From Chloroflexia bacterium (lineage in GTDB: Bacteria > Chloroflexota > Chloroflexia > Thermomicrobiales > JALYUS01): 6,344 nt of DNA. The stretch's first letter is position 1; each line of letters starts with the position of its first letter. Shown here piece after piece: positions 103-6,344 of this stretch. The DNA is taken from NCBI GenBank assembly GCA_025924435.1, contig JAICIL010000268.1, forward strand, positions 1-6,344, written 5' to 3'. The notes under the pieces are model-generated. The model saw nothing but the letters and a program-made list of their open reading frames with translations. It was not told where the DNA came from and made no database searches. The translations under genes were made by a program, and so were the position numbers.

Positions 103-157
103 TCTCACCATTTTCTCATTCGCGCCCCCCTCTCCTCTCAGACGCGCGCCGTATCGT
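103..157 (+). promoter_or_regulatory. Phased TCTCA-box promoter (copy 1)
   Basis: TCTCA boxes lie at 103-107, 114-118 and 136-140, so their starts are 11 and 22 bp apart. A -10-like TATCGT follows at 152-157. No recognisable TTGACA-like -35 lies 17 bp upstream of the -10; that region is C-rich. The same layout recurs at 2668-2722 and 3736-3790. Direct repeats on an 11-bp period beside a weak -35 are typical of activators of the PhoB/OmpR family, so the response regulator encoded at 4381-5073 is the natural candidate, by inference. Transcription would start near 164, giving a leader of about 49 nt. Confidence 0.75.
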
Positions 158-164
158 GGGAGCG

Positions 165-183
165 TGCCGGGGATGGCCCGGCG
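165..183 (+). promoter_or_regulatory. 5'-end leader hairpin
   Basis: GCCGGG (166-171) pairs with CCCGGC (177-182) across a 5-nt loop, with a possible T-G wobble closing pair. It lies 8-9 bases after the -10, so it would form almost at the first transcribed base. A hairpin in the equivalent place follows promoter copy 2. Terminal 5' hairpins often protect mRNA from decay; that role here is inference. Confidence 0.4.
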
Positions 184-212
184 GAAAGCGGAATGAGATC
201 GAGGATGGACGC

Positions 213-911
213 ATGACAGAGAATTTGAAAAGAGGACCGGCCGTCCCCCCGGCGCGGCGATCGGGGCCGGGTTCGCCCGCCTCGGCCGCATCGAGCGGGA
301 AGAAGGGCGGCGGGAAGAACAAGAAGGTGGCGAACGGCCTCGTCGCCCTCGGCTCGGCGGCGATCATCTCGGTCTACGGCCTCGGCTACGCCCGCACGCA
401 ATCGGCGGAGGCATCCGTCAACGGCGGCAGCCCGACGATCGCCGTCGCCACCGCCGCGCCCACGGCGACAACTGCCGCCATAGCGGCCCAGGCGCCCGCC
501 TTCCAGTCGCCGCTCTTCGCGCCGACGGCGACCGCCGCAGCGCCGAGCGCGACCGCCACCGGCGTCGCGCCGACGGCAACCACTACCGCACCCGCCGCGA
601 CGACCGCCCCCACGACCGCCCCCAAGGCCCCCGCTACGACGAGCGCGGCCTACAAGGACGGCACGTACACCGGCACCGGCACGAGCCGCCACGGCAGCAT
701 CACGGCGTCGGTCGTCATCCAGGGCGGCACGATCGCCTCGGCGGAGATCACGCAGTGCGGCACGCGCTACCCCTGCGCGAAGATCGCGACGCTCCCCGGC
801 CAGGTCGTGGCGCGCCAGAGCGCCGCCGTTGATCTCGTCTCCGGCGCGACGGACAGCTCGCAGGCGTATCAGGGCGCGATCAAGAACGCCCTCGCGAAAG
901 CGGCGGCATGA
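213..911 (+). CDS. Membrane-anchored FMN-binding domain protein (RnfG/NqrC-type flavin carrier)
   Basis: This 232-aa protein probably carries covalently bound FMN outside the cytoplasm. A basic, Pro/Gly/Lys-rich N-terminus (1-39) precedes one hydrophobic segment (about 40-60), a signal anchor or uncleaved signal. A Thr/Ala/Pro-rich low-complexity linker (about 75-145) leads to a compact FMN-binding domain (about 147-232). That domain has the YKDGTYTG opening and the SGATDSS motif at 210-216; in this family ApbE joins FMN to the last Thr/Ser of SGA[T/S], here T213. Cys182 and Cys188 lie close together and may form a disulfide. The start at 213 is preferred over 156 because GAGGA sits at 201-205 and 156 lies on the predicted -10/start-site region. 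The RnfD-like gene follows 70 bp downstream with no terminator, so the two are probably co-transcribed. No ApbE gene lies in the window. Confidence 0.88.
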   Translation: MTENLKRGPAVPPARRSGPGSPASAASSGKKGGGKNKKVANGLVALGSAAIISVYGLGYARTQSAEASVNGGSPTIAVATAAPTATTAAIAAQAPAFQSPLFAPTATAAAPSATATGVAPTATTTAPAATTAPTTAPKAPATTSAAYKDGTYTGTGTSRHGSITASVVIQGGTIASAEITQCGTRYPCAKIATLPGQVVARQSAAVDLVSGATDSSQAYQGAIKNALAKAAA

Positions 912-981
912 GCATGGCGGGATGCATCATCTCCGCGCCCCGGTCGCGACGAATGACGGAAAGATTTACGAGGTACCGCCA

Positions 982-1950
982 ATGACCGCATCAACGCGCA
1001 CATTCGCCATCGGGTCGCAGTTCCAGCCGGTCAAGCGCTTCTTCCGCACACCGAAGGGGCTGCTCCTCGTCGCGCTCGCGCTGCTCGCGGCGGTCGCGGC
1101 CACGCACGAAGGCATGCGCCTCATCCTGCCGGGGGTTTTCGGCGCGATGCTCGCCGCCGCGCTCCTCGATGTCGGGCTGGCGCGGATCGTCCGGGGCGCG
1201 TGGTTCTTCCCGAGCGGCGCGCTCCTCTCCGGCCTGATCGTCGCGCTCATCATCAGCCCCACGGAGTCGCCTCGCGTCGCCGCCGTCACGGCGATGCTCG
1301 CGGTCAACTCGAAGTACCTCTTCCGGGCGCGCGGCAAGCACATCTTCAACCCGGCCGCGCTGGCGCTCGTCGCGGCGTACTTCCTCTTCGCGAGCGGGCA
1401 GAGTTGGTGGGGCGCGCTCGCGAACCTGCCCGCGCCGTTCGTCGTCGCGCTGCTCGCGGCGGGGGTCTTCATCGCCGACCGCGTGAACAAACTGCCGATG
1501 GCGCTCGCGTTCCTCGGCTGCTATCTGCTGCTCTTCACGCTCGTGGCGTTCGTCGGCGACGCCGGGCGGGCGGCGGAAATCTTCCGCGCGCCGGACATCA
1601 ACGCCGCGCTCTTCTTCGCCTTCTTCATGCTCACCGACCCGCCGACCTCGCCCGCGCGCTACCGGGATCAGGCGCTGTTCGGCGTCGGGGTGGCGGTCGC
1701 GTGCGTCGCAATGTACCTGACGCTCGGCGCGCTCTACTTCCTCCCGGCCGGGCTGCTGATCGGGAACGGCTGGGAGGCGTGGCGCCGCACGCGGACGCGT
1801 TCGCGGGCGTCATCGCCCAACATCGGTGCGGGCAAGCGCACGCCCGCAGCCTCTCCCGCGCGGGCCGACGGGCGGGGAGAGCGCCCCGCGTCGGATCGGC
1901 GCGCCCTGGCCGTCGAGCATGCCGTCTCGCCGCCCCGCCCATCGCGGTGA
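982..1950 (+). CDS. NqrB/RnfD-family integral membrane protein, stand-alone
   Basis: This 322-aa polytopic protein has roughly eight to ten hydrophobic segments between residues 26 and 262. Family landmarks are FNPAA at 122-126 (the FNPAM site of RnfD/NqrB) and TDPPTSP at 218-224 (the TDPVTSP site). RnfD and NqrB bind flavin and pass electrons across the membrane within ion-pumping complexes. The SGAT/STAT flavinylation segment that RnfD/NqrB carry between these landmarks is not seen here, so this copy may lack covalent FMN. The start at 982 is chosen because GAGGT (970-974) lies 7 bp upstream and it gives the expected N-terminus; in-frame ATGs at 829 and 922 would add a basic, atypical extension. 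The tail (about 266-322) is Arg/Ala/Pro-rich and is encoded over a palindrome, so it may be an acquired extension. The partner is the preceding FMN-binding gene. No other Rnf/Nqr subunits are present. Confidence 0.85.
   Translation: MTASTRTFAIGSQFQPVKRFFRTPKGLLLVALALLAAVAATHEGMRLILPGVFGAMLAAALLDVGLARIVRGAWFFPSGALLSGLIVALIISPTESPRVAAVTAMLAVNSKYLFRARGKHIFNPAALALVAAYFLFASGQSWWGALANLPAPFVVALLAAGVFIADRVNKLPMALAFLGCYLLLFTLVAFVGDAGRAAEIFRAPDINAALFFAFFMLTDPPTSPARYRDQALFGVGVAVACVAMYLTLGALYFLPAGLLIGNGWEAWRRTRTRSRASSPNIGAGKRTPAASPARADGRGERPASDRRALAVEHAVSPPRPSR
1851..1881. repeat. GC-rich palindrome inside the 3' end of the RnfD-like gene
   Basis: CTCTCCC (1851-1857) is complementary to GGGAGAG (1875-1881), with further G/C pairing possible inside. 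It lies in the stretch encoding the low-complexity C-terminal tail and resembles the style of the hairpin about 80 bp downstream. It may be a dispersed palindromic element; copy number cannot be judged from one window. Confidence 0.45.
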
Positions 1951-1961
1951 TCCCACTCCCG

Positions 1962-1990
1962 CCCCTCCCCGCGTCGGGGAGGGGTTTATC
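1962..1990 (+). terminator. Rho-independent-type terminator after the RnfD-like gene
   Basis: CCCCTCCCC (1962-1970) pairs perfectly with GGGGAGGGG (1976-1984) across a 5-nt loop and is followed by TTTATC. The 9-bp G/C stem starts 12 bp after the stop codon at 1950. The T tract is short. Because it lies between convergent genes (stops at 1950 and 2017), it may also limit read-through from the minus strand, though no T tract exists in that direction. Confidence 0.65.
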
Positions 1991-2002
1991 GCGAGCGCGC
2001 AT

Positions 2003-2016
2003 CCGCCTTTCGGCGG
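2003..2016 (-). promoter_or_regulatory. Small GAAA-loop hairpin at the stop of the minus-strand gene
   Basis: Read on the minus strand, a 5-bp stem CCGCC/GGCGG closed by a GAAA tetraloop follows the TAA at 2017-2019 directly. GNRA loops make short hairpins stable. There is no T tract, so this is more likely a 3'-end structure than a terminator by itself. Confidence 0.35.
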
Positions 2017-2550
2017 TTACAGCGTCGAATTGCGCATCACGGTCGGCGATGTTTCATGGATCAGCCCGCGCGCCTCGCTCTCCGGTCGGGATTCGCGGGG
2101 GCCGCCCGCGTCCTTGCGCGGCTCTCGCATCGCCGTCGTGAGGGCCTCGCTCTCCGTTCGCGGCTCTTGCGGGCCGGCCGCCTCCGCCGCGTGGGCGAGC
2201 CGCCGCTCGGAGCGCACCTCTTTGTCCGCCTCCTCGTCGCCCTCGATCCAGGTCGCGAAGAGATGCGTCATCCCCTTGCGCACGGTGATGCTGACCTCGA
2301 ACTCGTGGCCCTCGTCGCACCAGCACTGGATGCAGATATCCGGGAAATCCCGGTCCACCGCCCCGCGCGGGATGAGCGGATACTCCCGGACCCGGTGCAG
2401 GGCGGGCCCGAGATGGACGTTCGACCCATCATCCGTCCCCACCCCGCGCGCCCGACAGACGGGGCAGGGGAGGACCGCCTCCCGCGCCGTCACCTCGACG
2501 CGCAGCGTGCGCCCATCGTTTCGTGGTGCCTTCCTGCTCACTGCTACCAT
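2017..2550 (-). CDS. Unrecognised protein with zinc-ribbon-like cysteine pattern
   Basis: I do not recognise a family for this 177-aa protein. It has CPVC at residues 29-32 and CIQCWC at 73-78 followed by H82. Two CxxC knuckles about 40 residues apart are a common zinc-ribbon layout, so metal binding is likely by inference. The conserved-looking core runs from about residue 15 to 105 and ends in an acidic stretch. The C-terminal third is charged and low-complexity, with a 24-residue-spaced duplication (125-137 and 149-161, pattern GP-x-E-x-R-x-ESEA). There is no signal peptide or membrane segment, so it is probably cytoplasmic. The start at 2550 is preceded by a strong GGAGGTGGAGGAACG leader; an upstream in-frame ATG at 2676 would lie ahead of the predicted promoter and lacks such a site. 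It is convergent with the RnfD-like gene and divergent from the 2793 gene. Confidence 0.75.
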   Translation of the reverse strand: MVAVSRKAPRNDGRTLRVEVTAREAVLPCPVCRARGVGTDDGSNVHLGPALHRVREYPLIPRGAVDRDFPDICIQCWCDEGHEFEVSITVRKGMTHLFATWIEGDEEADKEVRSERRLAHAAEAAGPQEPRTESEALTTAMREPRKDAGGPRESRPESEARGLIHETSPTVMRNSTL

Positions 2551-2609
2551 CGTTCCTCCACCTCCCGGGCAATTGCGCCGAACAACATTATGTCGAGTCC
2601 CAATGAGGA

Positions 2610-2638
2610 ATGATAGCGATGTATCAAGCGAAATGCAA
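2610..2638 (-). promoter_or_regulatory. Sigma-70-type promoter of the minus-strand gene
   Basis: Read on the minus strand, TTGCAT (2633-2638) and TATCAT (2610-2615) are separated by exactly 17 bp in a locally AT-richer patch. Transcription would begin near 2603, about 50 nt before the ATG at 2550, which supports that start. Unlike the three TCTCA promoters it has a fair -35, so it may not need an activator. Confidence 0.55.
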
Positions 2639-2667
2639 ATAGACGCCGCGTCGTAGCGGCGCGCGAT

Positions 2668-2722
2668 GCTCACCATCCTCTCATTTTCGCCGCCCCGTTC
2701 TCTCAGACGCGCGCCCTATCGT
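2668..2722 (+). promoter_or_regulatory. Phased TCTCA-box promoter (copy 2)
   Basis: Boxes GCTCA (2668-2672), TCTCA (2679-2683) and TCTCA (2701-2705) keep the 11- and 22-bp start spacing of copy 1. TATCGT at 2717-2722 starts 16 bp after the last box start, again as in copy 1. The first box has one mismatch. The segment from the last box to the -10 is nearly identical to copy 1. It drives the secreted helical-repeat gene at 2793, with a predicted leader of about 64 nt. It lies 30 bp from the -35 of the divergent promoter, so a bound regulator could affect both. Confidence 0.75.
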
Positions 2723-2729
2723 GGGGATG

Positions 2730-2748
2730 TGCCGGAAATCGTCCGGCA
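2730..2748 (+). promoter_or_regulatory. 5'-end leader hairpin
   Basis: TGCCGGA (2730-2736) and TCCGGCA (2742-2748) form a perfect 7-bp stem with a 5-nt loop, at the predicted transcript start. Position and loop size match the hairpin at 165-183. Confidence 0.5.
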
Positions 2749-2792
2749 TACGATGCGGCGGGAAAAGCAAGCCCGCAAAAGGAGCCAGCACC

Positions 2793-3668
2793 ATGAAGCG
2801 ATCCGTGAAACAGGCCATCGCCGCGACCGTCGTCGGCCTCGGCGTCACCGGCGGCGTTGTCCTCGCGCAGACGCCGACCACGACCCCGGCGCCCGGCGCG
2901 ACAACAACCGGCACCGCGACGACGCAACCGGCGGCCACCGCACAAGCGCCGAACGCCAACGCGCCGCAAGCCCCCGATGGCGGGCCGGGCGGACACGGGC
3001 AGTTCGGCCCGCGCGGTCGGGGGCCGGGCGGGGGGCCGCAAACGCCGACGACCGCCTCGGTCACCGCGCAAATCACCAACCTGACGCAGTCCATCACGAG
3101 CGCCAAGGCGGATCGCGACTTCGCCAACGGCAAGATGGACCTCGCGACGGTGAACGGCCTGATTGACAAGGCGAGCGCGTTGCAGGGCCAGGCGCAGAGC
3201 GCCCTGACCGCCAACAACCTCACGCAAGCGAGCGGCTATGTCCGCGCGGCGGAGGAGGCGCTACACAGCGCGGACGACCTGATCGTCGCCAGCATCGGCA
3301 CGACGGGGCTGCCCTCCGCCGCCAACCGCCCCGCGCGCCCCGCGCCGACGACGGCCCCGACCGCCGATCAGCAGAAGGCGCGGTCGAGCAACGAACTGGC
3401 GCGGGCGTATCAGGGCATCGTCAATGAGACGAACACCGTGAAGGCGAACGGCACGAGCGCCGCAGGCGACCTCTCCTTCTACGTCACGACGGCGCAGGGG
3501 CTGTACAAGCAGGCGTACGACCTCTACAACGCCGGGAAGTACGACCAGGCAAGCCAGACTGTCCGCGCCGCCGAGAGCGTCGCGCACATCGCCGACGATC
3601 TCCTGCACGCCGCCGGTGTGACACCGACCGGGCCGCAGGTCGTGCCCGTCCCGGCCCCCAATTTCTAA
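2793..3668 (+). CDS. Secreted protein with duplicated alpha-helical module
   Basis: I do not recognise a named family for this 291-aa exported protein. A signal peptide (residues 1 to about 25, KR-rich start, hydrophobic core, cleavage near VLA/Q) is followed by a Thr/Pro/Ala linker (26-62) and a Gly-rich segment (63-82). A helical module follows (about 88-168), then a Pro/Ala/Thr linker (about 170-195) and a second module (about 198-275). The modules are related: VRAAE-x5-ADDL occurs at 150-163 and again 107 residues later. AGKYDQAS near 247-254 gives the second copy a TPR-like look. A scaffold, binding or envelope-sensing role is possible but unproven. AAAAGGAG at 2777-2784 fixes the start at 2793, in preference to the in-frame ATG at 2721, which overlaps the -10. 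It is probably controlled by promoter copy 2 and ends at the hairpin at 3690-3720. Confidence 0.82.
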   Translation: MKRSVKQAIAATVVGLGVTGGVVLAQTPTTTPAPGATTTGTATTQPAATAQAPNANAPQAPDGGPGGHGQFGPRGRGPGGGPQTPTTASVTAQITNLTQSITSAKADRDFANGKMDLATVNGLIDKASALQGQAQSALTANNLTQASGYVRAAEEALHSADDLIVASIGTTGLPSAANRPARPAPTTAPTADQQKARSSNELARAYQGIVNETNTVKANGTSAAGDLSFYVTTAQGLYKQAYDLYNAGKYDQASQTVRAAESVAHIADDLLHAAGVTPTGPQVVPVPAPNF

Positions 3669-3689
3669 CATTTGGCATCCCTGCCTCCG

Positions 3690-3725
3690 CATCACCGAGG
3701 GTTCCCCGCCCTCGGTGATGTTTGT
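3690..3725 (+). terminator. Strong intrinsic terminator
   Basis: A perfect 12-bp stem, CATCACCGAGGG (3690-3701) with its complement at 3709-3720, encloses a 7-nt loop and is followed by TTTGT. It begins 21 bp after the stop at 3668. The next promoter's first TCTCA box starts only 15 bp downstream, so this hairpin insulates adjacent transcription units. Confidence 0.85.
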
Positions 3726-3735
3726 GCGCCGCCGC

Positions 3736-3790
3736 TCTCATCGAGTTCTCATTTTCGGCCCCCGCTCCTCTCATTCGCGCCCTGTATCCT
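3736..3790 (+). promoter_or_regulatory. Phased TCTCA-box promoter (copy 3)
   Basis: TCTCA boxes occur at 3736-3740, 3747-3751 and 3769-3773, with the same 11- and 22-bp spacing as the other two copies. TATCCT at 3785-3790 starts 16 bp after the last box start. Box 2 and its next six bases match copy 2 exactly. The predicted transcript starts near 3797, about 53 nt before the ATG at 3850. Because it directly follows a strong terminator, it must supply transcription for the downstream gene, and possibly for the regulator genes if read-through passes the fold-back repeat. Confidence 0.72.
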
Positions 3791-3849: not shown

Positions 3850-4299
3850 ATGGCGCGCACCCCCACGCAACTCGTTTCGGAGCATCTCACCGGCGATCCC
3901 GCCATGCTGCGCGATGCGCGGAAGCGGTTGACGCTGGCGGACAGCCCGGCGGATGTGCGGGAACGGGTTGCATGCGCCTTGCGACGATCCGAGCGGCGCG
4001 GGTATGCGGCGATCCACAACGAGCGCATGATCCGCACGCACGCCCACCTCGGCGCGCTGCGGCGGGCGTTGGTGCAGTGGTCGGCGCAGCACGCCCCCCG
4101 CGAGATCGGTGACTATCGCGCGCTGCTCGGATGGGCGCTCGCGCGGGTGGACTGGCCGGCGGTGATGCAATCCGTTTCGCTGTTGGAGCAACCAAGCACG
4201 CAAAGAAAGATTGAACGCAGAGATCGCGGAGACCGCAGAGGACGATTCCTTTTCGTTTCCTCTCTGTGCGCTCCGCGATCTCTGCGATCTCTGCGTTAA
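3850..4299 (+). CDS. Unrecognised small protein with repeat-encoded C-terminus
   Basis: This 149-aa protein matches no family I can name. Residues 1 to about 115 read as a coherent, Arg- and Ala-rich, probably all-helical soluble domain, with recurring Leu/Ala spacing and no signal peptide, membrane segment or cysteine/histidine cluster. From about residue 118 the character changes to RDRGDRRGR then SLCAPRSLRSLR, because the DNA enters the inverted repeat at 4201-4314. The native protein probably ended near there and its stop was displaced by the repeat. AGGAG at 3837-3841, 8 bp upstream, sets the start at 3850. It sits between a TCTCA-type promoter and the two-component genes, so a role in the same response is plausible but only inferred. 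Confidence 0.62.
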   Translation: MARTPTQLVSEHLTGDPAMLRDARKRLTLADSPADVRERVACALRRSERRGYAAIHNERMIRTHAHLGALRRALVQWSAQHAPREIGDYRALLGWALARVDWPAVMQSVSLLEQPSTQRKIERRDRGDRRGRFLFVSSLCAPRSLRSLR

Positions 4300-4314
4300 G
4301 TTCGTTCTCTTCGC
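4201..4314. repeat. Fold-back (inverted) repeat of 'cgcagagatcgc' type
   Basis: The left arm (core 4214-4242) reads AACGCAGAGATCGCGGAG and onward. The right arm (core 4257-4297) gives AACGCAGAGATCGCAGAG when reverse-complemented. The similarity extends outward more weakly (AAGA-rich on the left, its complement TCTT on the right). Each arm also holds short direct repeats of 'GCAGAGATC' kind. The arms flank a short T-rich centre. The element resembles dispersed fold-back repeats seen in large bacterial genomes and may be MITE-like, but no transposase or target duplication is visible. It encodes the C-terminus of the preceding gene and ends about 65 bp before the response regulator, so its RNA could form a long hairpin. 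Confidence 0.75.
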
Positions 4315-4380: not shown

Positions 4381-5073
4381 ATGACGGCACCGGAACCGAA
4401 CGCGGCGGCGCTGACCGTCCTGCTCGTCGAGGACGAGGAGACGATCATCGAGTTTCTGACGATGGGGCTGACCTACGAGGGGTTCGCTGTCCACGCCGTG
4501 CGGGACGGGCGTGAGGCGCTGCCGACCTTCGAGCGCGTCCACCCGCACCTCGTCCTGCTGGACATCATGCTCCCCGGCGTGGACGGCATCGCCCTCTGCC
4601 GCACGCTCCGCGCCCGCAGCGACGTGCCGATTATCATGCTCACCGCGCGCGGCGAGGTGGAGGACCGGGTCGCCGGGCTGGATAGCGGCGCGGACGACTA
4701 CCTGCCGAAGCCCTTCCGGTTCGTGGAACTGATGGCCCGCATCCGCGCCGTCCTGCGGCGGCATCAGATCGTCGTCGGCAGCGCGCTCACGGTGGGCGGC
4801 CTGCGGCTGGACCGGAACACGCGCGAGGTGACGGACGCGGGCGAGCCGGTCAGCCTGACGCCGCGCGAGTTCGACCTGCTCGAATGCTTCATGCTCCACC
4901 CCCGGCAGGTGCTGACGCGCGACGCGATCCTCAATCGCGTCTGGGGCTACGATCAGGCGGTGGACACGAATGTCGTGGATGTCTACGTGCGCTATCTGCG
5001 CGCCAAATTGAACGACGAGCGGCACGAGCGGATCGAGGCGGTGCGCGGCGTCGGCTACACGTTGCGGGCATGA
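4381..5073 (+). CDS. OmpR/PhoB-family response regulator
   Basis: This 230-aa cytoplasmic transcription factor is phosphorylated by a partner kinase and binds DNA through a winged helix. The receiver domain (about 11-127) has the acidic pair E17/D18, phospho-acceptor D61 in LLDIMLPG, T88 in MLTAR, and K110 in LPKPF; all the conserved switch and catalytic residues are present. The C-terminal winged helix (about 135-229) has LTPREFDLLE, the RVWGY segment, VDVYVRYLRAKL as the recognition-helix region, and the terminal VRGVGYTLR. Length is normal for the family. GAGGG at 4372-4376 precedes the ATG. It overlaps the kinase gene by ATGA, indicating translational coupling. Regulators of this family bind direct repeats with a period of 10-11 bp, which makes the TCTCA boxes at 103-140, 2668-2705 and 3736-3773 its likely targets (inference). 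Confidence 0.95.
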   Translation: MTAPEPNAAALTVLLVEDEETIIEFLTMGLTYEGFAVHAVRDGREALPTFERVHPHLVLLDIMLPGVDGIALCRTLRARSDVPIIMLTARGEVEDRVAGLDSGADDYLPKPFRFVELMARIRAVLRRHQIVVGSALTVGGLRLDRNTREVTDAGEPVSLTPREFDLLECFMLHPRQVLTRDAILNRVWGYDQAVDTNVVDVYVRYLRAKLNDERHERIEAVRGVGYTLRA

Positions 5074-6344
5074 GGAGCGCGCTGCGCCACCGGCATCGCT
5101 CCTTGCGCGCGACGTTGATCGCGCTGACGGCCTCCGTGCTCGTCAGCATCATGGCGCTCTTCGGGATCATCCTCTATGTCGGCATTGGCCGTGTCCTCAT
5201 TGACAACACCGCGCAGGGTCTCCGCTCCTCGGCGGGCGCCGCGATTGACGGGCAACTCAACGGCCCCCGGCGGCCGCGGGATGACCGCACGCTGCCGATT
5301 CCCGGTATCGCGCCGGGGCCGCCCATCGGCCAGGGTGGCGCGCCGCCCGCGCAGGACACGGCGCGGTCGCTCCACGATCTCGCCCGGGCGCTGACGACGC
5401 GCGACATCGCCGCCCTGACGACCGACGCGGCGGGGGCGACGGTCGGCGACGGCCCCGCGCTCGCCGGCATCACGACGGTGAGCGCGCCCGCGCTCGACCC
5501 CGCCACCTATGCATCGGTCGCGGCGACGAACCGGGAGCGCCATTTCCGCTCCCAGACGGCGGATGGCCCCGTGCTGGTCGAACTGGTGCCGCTCGTCCGG
5601 CAGGTGGGCGCGGCGCCGCGCGCGGTCGGCGTGCTCGAGCTGAGCACATCGCTGCGGAACGTTGATGCCTTCCTGGACCGGCTGCGCCTGCTGCTGCTGA
5701 TCGGCACGCTATTGGCCGTTCTGACGACGGTCCTCCTGACGATCCCGCTCGTCGCCGGGCTGCTCCAGCCGCTCCGCCGGATGGCGGGGACGAGCCGGGC
5801 AATCGCGGGCGGCGACCTCAGCCTGCGCGTGGCCGTCCCGCGCGGCGGGGACGAGTTGACCGACCTTGCCGTGGCGTTCAATGAGATGGTCGGCAAACTG
5901 GAGGCGGCGTTCGCCACGCAGCGCCGGTTCGTCGCGGACGCCTCGCACGAACTGCGCTCGCCGCTCGCCGCGCTCGGCGGCGGCATCGAGATGCTGCTCA
6001 TGGGCGCGGACCGGGCGGACCCGGCGGCGCGCGCCCGGCTCCTGCGGCTGATGGAGTCGGAGATCGCCCGGATGGGCCGCCTCGTGGACGATCTGCTGAC
6101 CCTGACGCGCTTCGATGCCAGCCCGCTCGGCACGATGCAGCGCGCGCCCGTGGACCTCGGCGCGCTCGCCGCCGATGTCGCCGATGTGACGCGCCTGCTC
6201 GCGCCGGACCGGGTGATCGCGCTGGACGTGCCCGCCGATACGGCGATCATCGTGCCGGGCGACGCGGACCGGCTGCGCCAGGCGCTCCTCAACCTCTGCG
6301 CGAACGCCCGCGCCTATACGCCCCCCGGCGGCACAATCACCGTC
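5070..6344 (+). CDS. Membrane sensor histidine kinase, 3' end cut by the window
   Basis: The reading frame is open from 5070 to the window edge (425 residues seen, no stop), so the protein is incomplete; the family is usually about 460-500 aa. The order is a basic N-terminus, TM1 (about 12-37), an extracytoplasmic sensor region (about 41-204) with a Pro/Gly-rich stretch at 64-94, TM2 (206-231), HAMP linker (about 232-285), dimerisation/phospho-acceptor helix with H293 in SHELRSPL, and the start of the ATP-binding domain with N412 of the N box (NLCANARAYTPPGG). The D/F/G boxes lie beyond the edge. The start is set by the ATGA overlap with the regulator; the sequence just upstream lies in the regulator's coding end, so coupled translation is likely. 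It phosphorylates, and probably dephosphorylates, that regulator. The ligand is unknown: the sensor region matches no domain I recognise. Confidence 0.93.
   Translation, partial: MRSALRHRHRSLRATLIALTASVLVSIMALFGIILYVGIGRVLIDNTAQGLRSSAGAAIDGQLNGPRRPRDDRTLPIPGIAPGPPIGQGGAPPAQDTARSLHDLARALTTRDIAALTTDAAGATVGDGPALAGITTVSAPALDPATYASVAATNRERHFRSQTADGPVLVELVPLVRQVGAAPRAVGVLELSTSLRNVDAFLDRLRLLLLIGTLLAVLTTVLLTIPLVAGLLQPLRRMAGTSRAIAGGDLSLRVAVPRGGDELTDLAVAFNEMVGKLEAAFATQRRFVADASHELRSPLAALGGGIEMLLMGADRADPAARARLLRLMESEIARMGRLVDDLLTLTRFDASPLGTMQRAPVDLGALAADVADVTRLLAPDRVIALDVPADTAIIVPGDADRLRQALLNLCANARAYTPPGGTITV

Follow-up and report, generated by a model that had tools for sequence, protein, structure and literature searches.

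In Escherichia coli K-12, PhoB activates pstS, and the array of pho boxes at this promoter takes the place of the -35 element. Pho boxes are tandem 8-bp repeats with a 3-bp linker, located 10 bp 5' of the -10 element (excerpt of PMC1906773). Units of 11 nt are also described for Streptomyces PhoP beside a PolR site, and in the PhoP/PolR-type repeats of Actinobacteria this unit spacing is read by response regulators (excerpt of PMC6754071). For the Chloroflexota, an open-access literature search, which does not cover all literature, returned no described OmpR-type motif and nothing on the operator or regulon reported here. In this study, we analyse a stretch of 6,344 nucleotides from a Chloroflexia bacterium (contig JAICIL010000268.1; the whole stretch is called the window), which carries three sites with the layout TCTCA-N6-TCTCA-N17-TCTCA-N11-TATCST. 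We consider it probable, judging from the sequence, that these are PhoB-type operators and that the adjacent OmpR/PhoB-family regulator binds them and activates three transcription units, including its own operon. An architecture of this kind is known, whereas operator sequence and regulon appear to be undescribed.

The three sites are the following.

Site 1, 103..157, plus strand: boxes 103-107, 114-118 and 136-140, degenerate unit at 125, -10-like hexamer TATCGT at 152-157; 5' of the FMN_bind gene.
Site 2, 2668..2722, plus strand: boxes 2668-2672 (GCTCA), 2679-2683 and 2701-2705, degenerate unit at 2690, -10-like hexamer TATCGT at 2717-2722; 5' of the open reading frame (ORF) 2793-3668.
Site 3, 3736..3790, plus strand: boxes 3736-3740, 3747-3751 and 3769-3773, degenerate unit at 3758, -10-like hexamer TATCCT at 3785-3790; 5' of the ORF 3850-4299 and a regulator-kinase pair.

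The original prediction, which had claimed identical spacing in three copies, a single mismatched box among nine and a -10 hexamer starting 16 bp after the last box start, was largely right about these sites. Their spacing agrees base for base, the distance to the start of the hexamer is in each case 49 nt from the first box start and 16 nt from the last one, and eight boxes are exact TCTCA, the exception being GCTCA at 2668. The exact three-box pattern occurs at two places in the window and at none in 200 dinucleotide shuffles. With at least 14 of 15 box letters plus TATC demanded, about 9e-8 places are expected by chance on both strands at the window composition of 70% G+C. The plus strand of the window holds nine TCTCA words, and eight of them are site boxes. 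A -35-like hexamer 17 bp from the -10 is absent by inspection (0 to 1 of 6 letters at the sites), and a promoter scan of the plus strand of the window found no sigma-70-like site, which fits the earlier proposal of an activator-type site without a usable -35. Between the -10 and the start codon, the leaders measure 55, 70 and 59 nt for sites 1, 2 and 3, respectively, and an Rfam search gave no match at gathering thresholds.

The gap of 22 bp contains a skipped degenerate unit, so that each array comprises four 11-bp units; the boxes start at 0, 11 and 33 and the -10 at 49. The degenerate third units read CCCCCCTCTCC (site 1), CCGCCCCGTTC (site 2) and GCCCCCGCTCC (site 3). The pho boxes of E. 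coli pstS are built in the same way, with four 11-bp units, a degenerate third one and the core of unit 4 starting 16 bp before the -10. The corresponding pattern TGTCA-N6-TGTCA-N17-TGTCA-N11-TAT has a single match in the E. coli K-12 region analysed, and this lies upstream of pstS. OmpR/PhoB-type direct-repeat operators are marked by head-to-tail repeats at about 11 bp and by an array that ends about 10-11 bp 5' of a -10 without a -35, and both features are found here. Because the geometry is base for base that of pstS and 11-nt units have been described before, we take each window site to be a PhoB-type operator with a TCTCA core. The geometry common to the window and pstS also suggests that the distance from the last unit to the -10 is a conserved constraint of the activation mechanism.

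The likeness to the Pho regulon has its limits. The core is TCTCA and not the TGTCA of E. coli pho boxes, the linkers between units 2 and 4 are C-rich and not A/T-rich as at pstS, and no phosphate genes were seen among the window ORFs put through domain scans. The regulator encoded in the window scores 231 bits against the NCBIfam PhoB model, below its equivalog cut-off of 296.2. The PhoP/PolR-type repeats differ from the window in their GTTCAC core and in their phosphate-related targets. Motifs of other regulators were compared as well: neither the MprA motif of Corynebacterium (TKTTAAGAAM) nor the CutR motif (TAWATAAA) resembles TCTCA, and a suspected resemblance to the MprA box was not confirmed.

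Repression, or activation combined with repression, from the same sites is a quite unlikely reading, since a -35-like hexamer is absent and the arrays occupy the position of those at pstS, which PhoB activates. It draws on the closeness of unit 4 to the -10 and on Streptomyces CutR, which acts both ways depending on site position (excerpt of PMC12802291).

Conservation of the sites was followed in two related genomes, G594, found by sampling the class of genome G100, and G565, found by sampling the order of G594; earlier sampling by phylum, order and class had yielded regulators of only 53-60% identity. With these genomes for comparison, the genes of the window are as follows.

213..911, plus strand: FMN_bind protein (RnfG/NqrC type), PF04205 with E 1.4e-6, above cut-off; 68% identical in G565.
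982..1950, plus strand: RnfD/NqrB-like membrane protein, PF03116 with E 5e-13 and 49.5 bits against a curated cut-off of 27.7; 73% identical in G565.
2793..3668, plus strand: putative secreted protein with no assigned function, signal-peptide-like N terminus by inspection; homologues lie 3' of a site in G565 (83%) and G594 (32%, E 2e-27).
3850..4299, plus strand: small ORF with no assigned function, the first gene 3' of site 3; it extends into a palindrome at its 3' end, and its first 120 residues are 67.5% identical in G565.
4381..5073, plus strand: OmpR/PhoB-family response regulator, the proposed activator, PF00072 and PF00486.
5070..6344, plus strand: sensor histidine kinase with HAMP and HisKA domains, running off the window; a 52% identical homologue adjoins the regulator in G594.

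A G565 contig of 6,090 bases keeps the gene order of the window and breaks off within the first part of the regulator gene. Each of the three sites recurs there at an orthologous place 5' of genes with unchanged spacing, when mismatches to the pattern are allowed; the ortholog of site 1 lies on the reverse strand of L196 and has two box letters changed. Compared with the window, 42 of 45 box letters, 18 of 18 letters of the -10 and 83 of 102 other site letters are kept. Without gaps, the upstream flanks of 55 nt agree at 33, 16 and 16 positions and the leaders at 19/55, 44/68 and 15/57. Across the whole G565 genome (4.4 Mb), a search allowing up to three mismatches returns exactly three sites, all in this cluster and by homology placed between genes, and the backwards pattern returns none. 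The expectations of a small local regulon and of conserved hits 5' of genes in related genomes are thus in agreement with G565.

G594, whose regulator is 74% identical to that of the window, has two sites at up to three mismatches. The first lies directly 3' of the regulator-kinase pair and is followed by a 185-amino-acid (aa) ORF and the homologue of the 2793-3668 protein; the second lies about 120 nt 5' of an ORF of 268 aa whose start looks like that of a secreted protein.

The same comparisons bear on a duplication of one promoter block, which would make the three sites alike through common origin and not through function. The likeness does extend past the boxes, site 2 being 78% identical to site 1 over 88 nt, but site 3 reaches only 61% over that stretch. 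In G565 all three are kept apart and conserved while most of their flanks have diverged, and the cluster in G594 contains just one site. Duplication may be how the sites arose, retention implying function; as a full account of them it is very improbable.

The regulator at 4381-5073 combines a receiver with a Trans_reg_C domain, as members of the OmpR family do. Its best match among NCBIfam models, and also in the PDB by sequence, is MtrA of the actinobacterial MtrAB system; the score of 249.5 bits stays under the family cut-off of 300, the likeness being one of protein sequence. D61, T88 and K110, the usual phosphorylation residues, are invariant in all 20 sequences of alignment A1. The kinase start overlaps the regulator stop by 4 nt.

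Put together, the layout, its conservation and the co-location with the regulator are observed in the sequence, and the following mechanism is proposed on this basis. The kinase (5070 onwards) would phosphorylate the regulator, which would then bind units 1-2 and 3-4 head to tail. Units 1, 2 and 4 carry the TCTCA core and unit 3 a degenerate one; the array would stand in for the -35, and the bound regulator would contact or recruit RNA polymerase in its place, as PhoB does at pstS. Site 1 is predicted to drive the FMN_bind and RnfD/NqrB-like genes, presumably co-transcribed, for extracytoplasmic flavin electron transfer. Site 2 would drive the putative secreted protein, and site 3 an operon of the 3850 ORF, regulator and kinase, resulting in positive autoregulation.

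The FMN_bind and RnfD-like pair suggests an extracytoplasmic redox function, as in the NQR/RNF-like flavinylated electron-transfer systems, in which an FMN_bind protein likewise adjoins an NqrB/RnfD homologue (eLife 2021, excerpt of PMC8238504). Unlike those systems, the RnfD-like protein of the window shows no NAD-binding domain in the domain scan, and no ApbE match was found among the window ORFs scanned. The FMN_bind protein contains the sequence DLVSGAT, similar to a flavinylation motif of ApbE. The signal perceived by the kinase is perhaps the redox or envelope state. The locus offers a concrete operator that can be searched for, probably that of a two-component system, in a phylum of which most members are uncultured, and a flavin electron-transfer pair that appears to be tied to one sensor.

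TCTCA arrays are distributed more widely. Among 400 sampled genomes of the phylum, 26 sites were found in 22 genomes at up to one mismatch, against 0 for the backwards control. In 61 genomes of the order of G594, a slightly shorter pattern with up to two mismatches gave 35 sites in 24 genomes and 2 in the control. Of the 26 sites of the phylum sample, 18 have TCTCAG as their first box; often the third unit can be recognised and the -10 resembles TATACT. An OmpR-type regulator lies within about 1.5 kb of the site in 6 of 26 loci of 3 kb tested from the phylum sample and in 7 of 29 from the order (29 of its 35 sites), where about 3.6% would be expected by our own estimate of about 10 regulator matches per Mb in 7 genomes; several of these loci belong to closely related genomes and so do not count as independent. 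Sites stand directly 5' of a regulator at L125, L126, L131 and L132, directly 3' of a kinase at L133 and on both sides of a regulator-kinase pair at L197-L199. In G068, all three sites (up to one mismatch) fall within 7.4 kb on a single contig. Two of them lie on either side of a regulator-kinase pair, and a ferric-reductase-like gene and an FMN_bind gene are nearby.

From these relatives it can also be judged whether the layout is the promoter class of an alternative sigma factor and not a regulator operator. The fixed distance to a shared TATCST would be in line with this, and TCTCAT-type arrays stand 5' of a sigma-70 family gene at L114, L115 and L117 (genomes G204, G100 and G236 of the G100 class; the gene is typed by Pfam in one of the three). 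Yet the relatives use TATACT, TATCCT or TAGCCT as their -10, and tandem 11-bp repeats reaching to about 61 bp 5' of the inferred start are unlike the footprint of a sigma factor. We regard the sigma factor reading as hardly credible.

HtrA-like genes were seen near sites in two genomes. In G565, one with Trypsin_2 and PDZ domains (L196:3660-4955) lies just upstream of the FMN_bind site, and in G100 (L116) an HtrA-like protease follows some 370 nt after a site.

The likeliest binder of the window sites, as far as sequence can indicate, is the OmpR/PhoB-family regulator encoded at 4381-5073, because both are co-located in the window, G565 and G594 and because such sites are in general associated with regulators. 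A number of results weigh against this assignment. The G565 contig ends inside the regulator gene, and elsewhere in that genome no regulator ortholog was found, the best match reaching 52%. In G594 no FMN_bind match was found, and therefore the content of the regulon varies. Among loci selected by similarity to the regulator, only 2 of 13 have a site (L151, L157), and the regulators of G138, G218 and G524 (58-60% identical) have no site nearby. A regulator-based scan of genome contigs gave 80 loci among the matches listed, none above 52% identity; 2 of these 80 have a site (L019, about 1.4 kb after the regulator, and L075). Conversely, a regulator within about 1.5 kb is lacking at 20 of the 26 and 22 of the 29 tested site loci, and in 8 of 26 and 12 of 29 the site falls in an open frame that spans 200 codons or more. 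The latter counts are an upper bound, as they include G565 sites 2 and 3, which homology puts between genes. With so many loci lacking a regulator or lying in open frames, some of the matches outside the clade may have arisen by chance or have nothing to do with this system. On occurrence inside genes, which the original prediction had named as speaking against it, the outcome is divided: the G565 sites are intergenic, and in relatives some may lie inside genes. Finally, the regulators found beside sites fall into more than one clade, and other regulators may therefore read TCTCA too.

This last point comes from a tree of regulators, which led us to reject one regulator family for all TCTCA sites: at least 7 changes of the label "beside site" are forced by well-supported branches. 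The label needs 10 changes against 18.3 in shuffles, with 0 of 500 shuffles as low. These labels are biased, since the motif itself was the means by which most of the motif rows were obtained, and other phyla are the source of many of the remaining rows; moreover, L157 was left unlabelled despite its 14/15 site, and some loci had been thinned out beforehand. Two further lines were set aside. Enrichment of the 11/22 spacing at regulator-similarity loci was dropped as support, as it concerned only 2 of 17 distinct places, other spacings being listed once each. A recognition-helix signature, Y-[VI]-x-Y-L-R, is present in 12 of 13 site-side regulators including that of the window, but also in several without a nearby site, and was not used. 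Viral contigs yielded relatives of 34-40% identity only.

It is against this background that another OmpR/PhoB-family member, a PhoB- or MtrA-like paralogue, has to be considered as the binder of the PhoB-type operators, with the adjacent regulator merely a target. Several regulator lineages adjoin TCTCA arrays, the geometry is that of PhoB sites, and in G565 a further 13 matches cover almost the full length of the regulator, one of them interrupted by an internal stop. A global PhoB, however, would be expected to have sites elsewhere, whereas those of G565 are confined to this locus and one of the two in G594 is beside this regulator; a phosphate gene was not seen among the scanned window ORFs either. 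We judge binding by another family member to be unlikely and favour the regulator at 4381-5073.

A broader proposal, which we put forward tentatively and with more doubt than conviction, is that Chloroflexota share a regulatory code of TCTCA-type 11-bp arrays whose third unit is skipped or weak, and that several related envelope-sensing two-component systems read it. Under the control of these systems would be flavin electron transfer outside the cytoplasm as well as secreted proteins, HtrA proteases and a sigma factor, with a geometry identical between phyla to that of E. coli pstS. At L075:16250, a TTTCAT version of the four-unit array is found with a TATAGT -10, and may represent a related specificity.

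Some further observations concern the genes of the window. Relatives of the regulator and of the RnfD-like protein have longest contigs of equal length in four cases (75,425, 311,002, 15,700 and 7,343 bases), which suggests, without proving it, that the two are linked there too. The tail of the RnfD-like protein (1894-1950, DRRALAVEHA) aligns by eye with the first strand of the receiver-like C-terminal domain in P0124, a 79% identical RnfD-like homologue with PF03116 and PF00072, and perhaps represents what is left of a fused receiver. An ORF without assigned function lies on the minus strand (2017-2571), in the interval from the RnfD-like gene to site 2. In G565 this gene and this site are only about 30 nt apart, so that the ORF was either inserted in the window or lost in G565. 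A near-perfect palindrome occupies 4214-4297, between the small ORF and the regulator, with arms of 27 nt that are 89% complementary; the stretch 4205-4305 has a folding energy of -51 kcal/mol (z -6.2). Since G565 is shorter by about 81 nt at this place, the palindrome looks like an inserted REP-like element.

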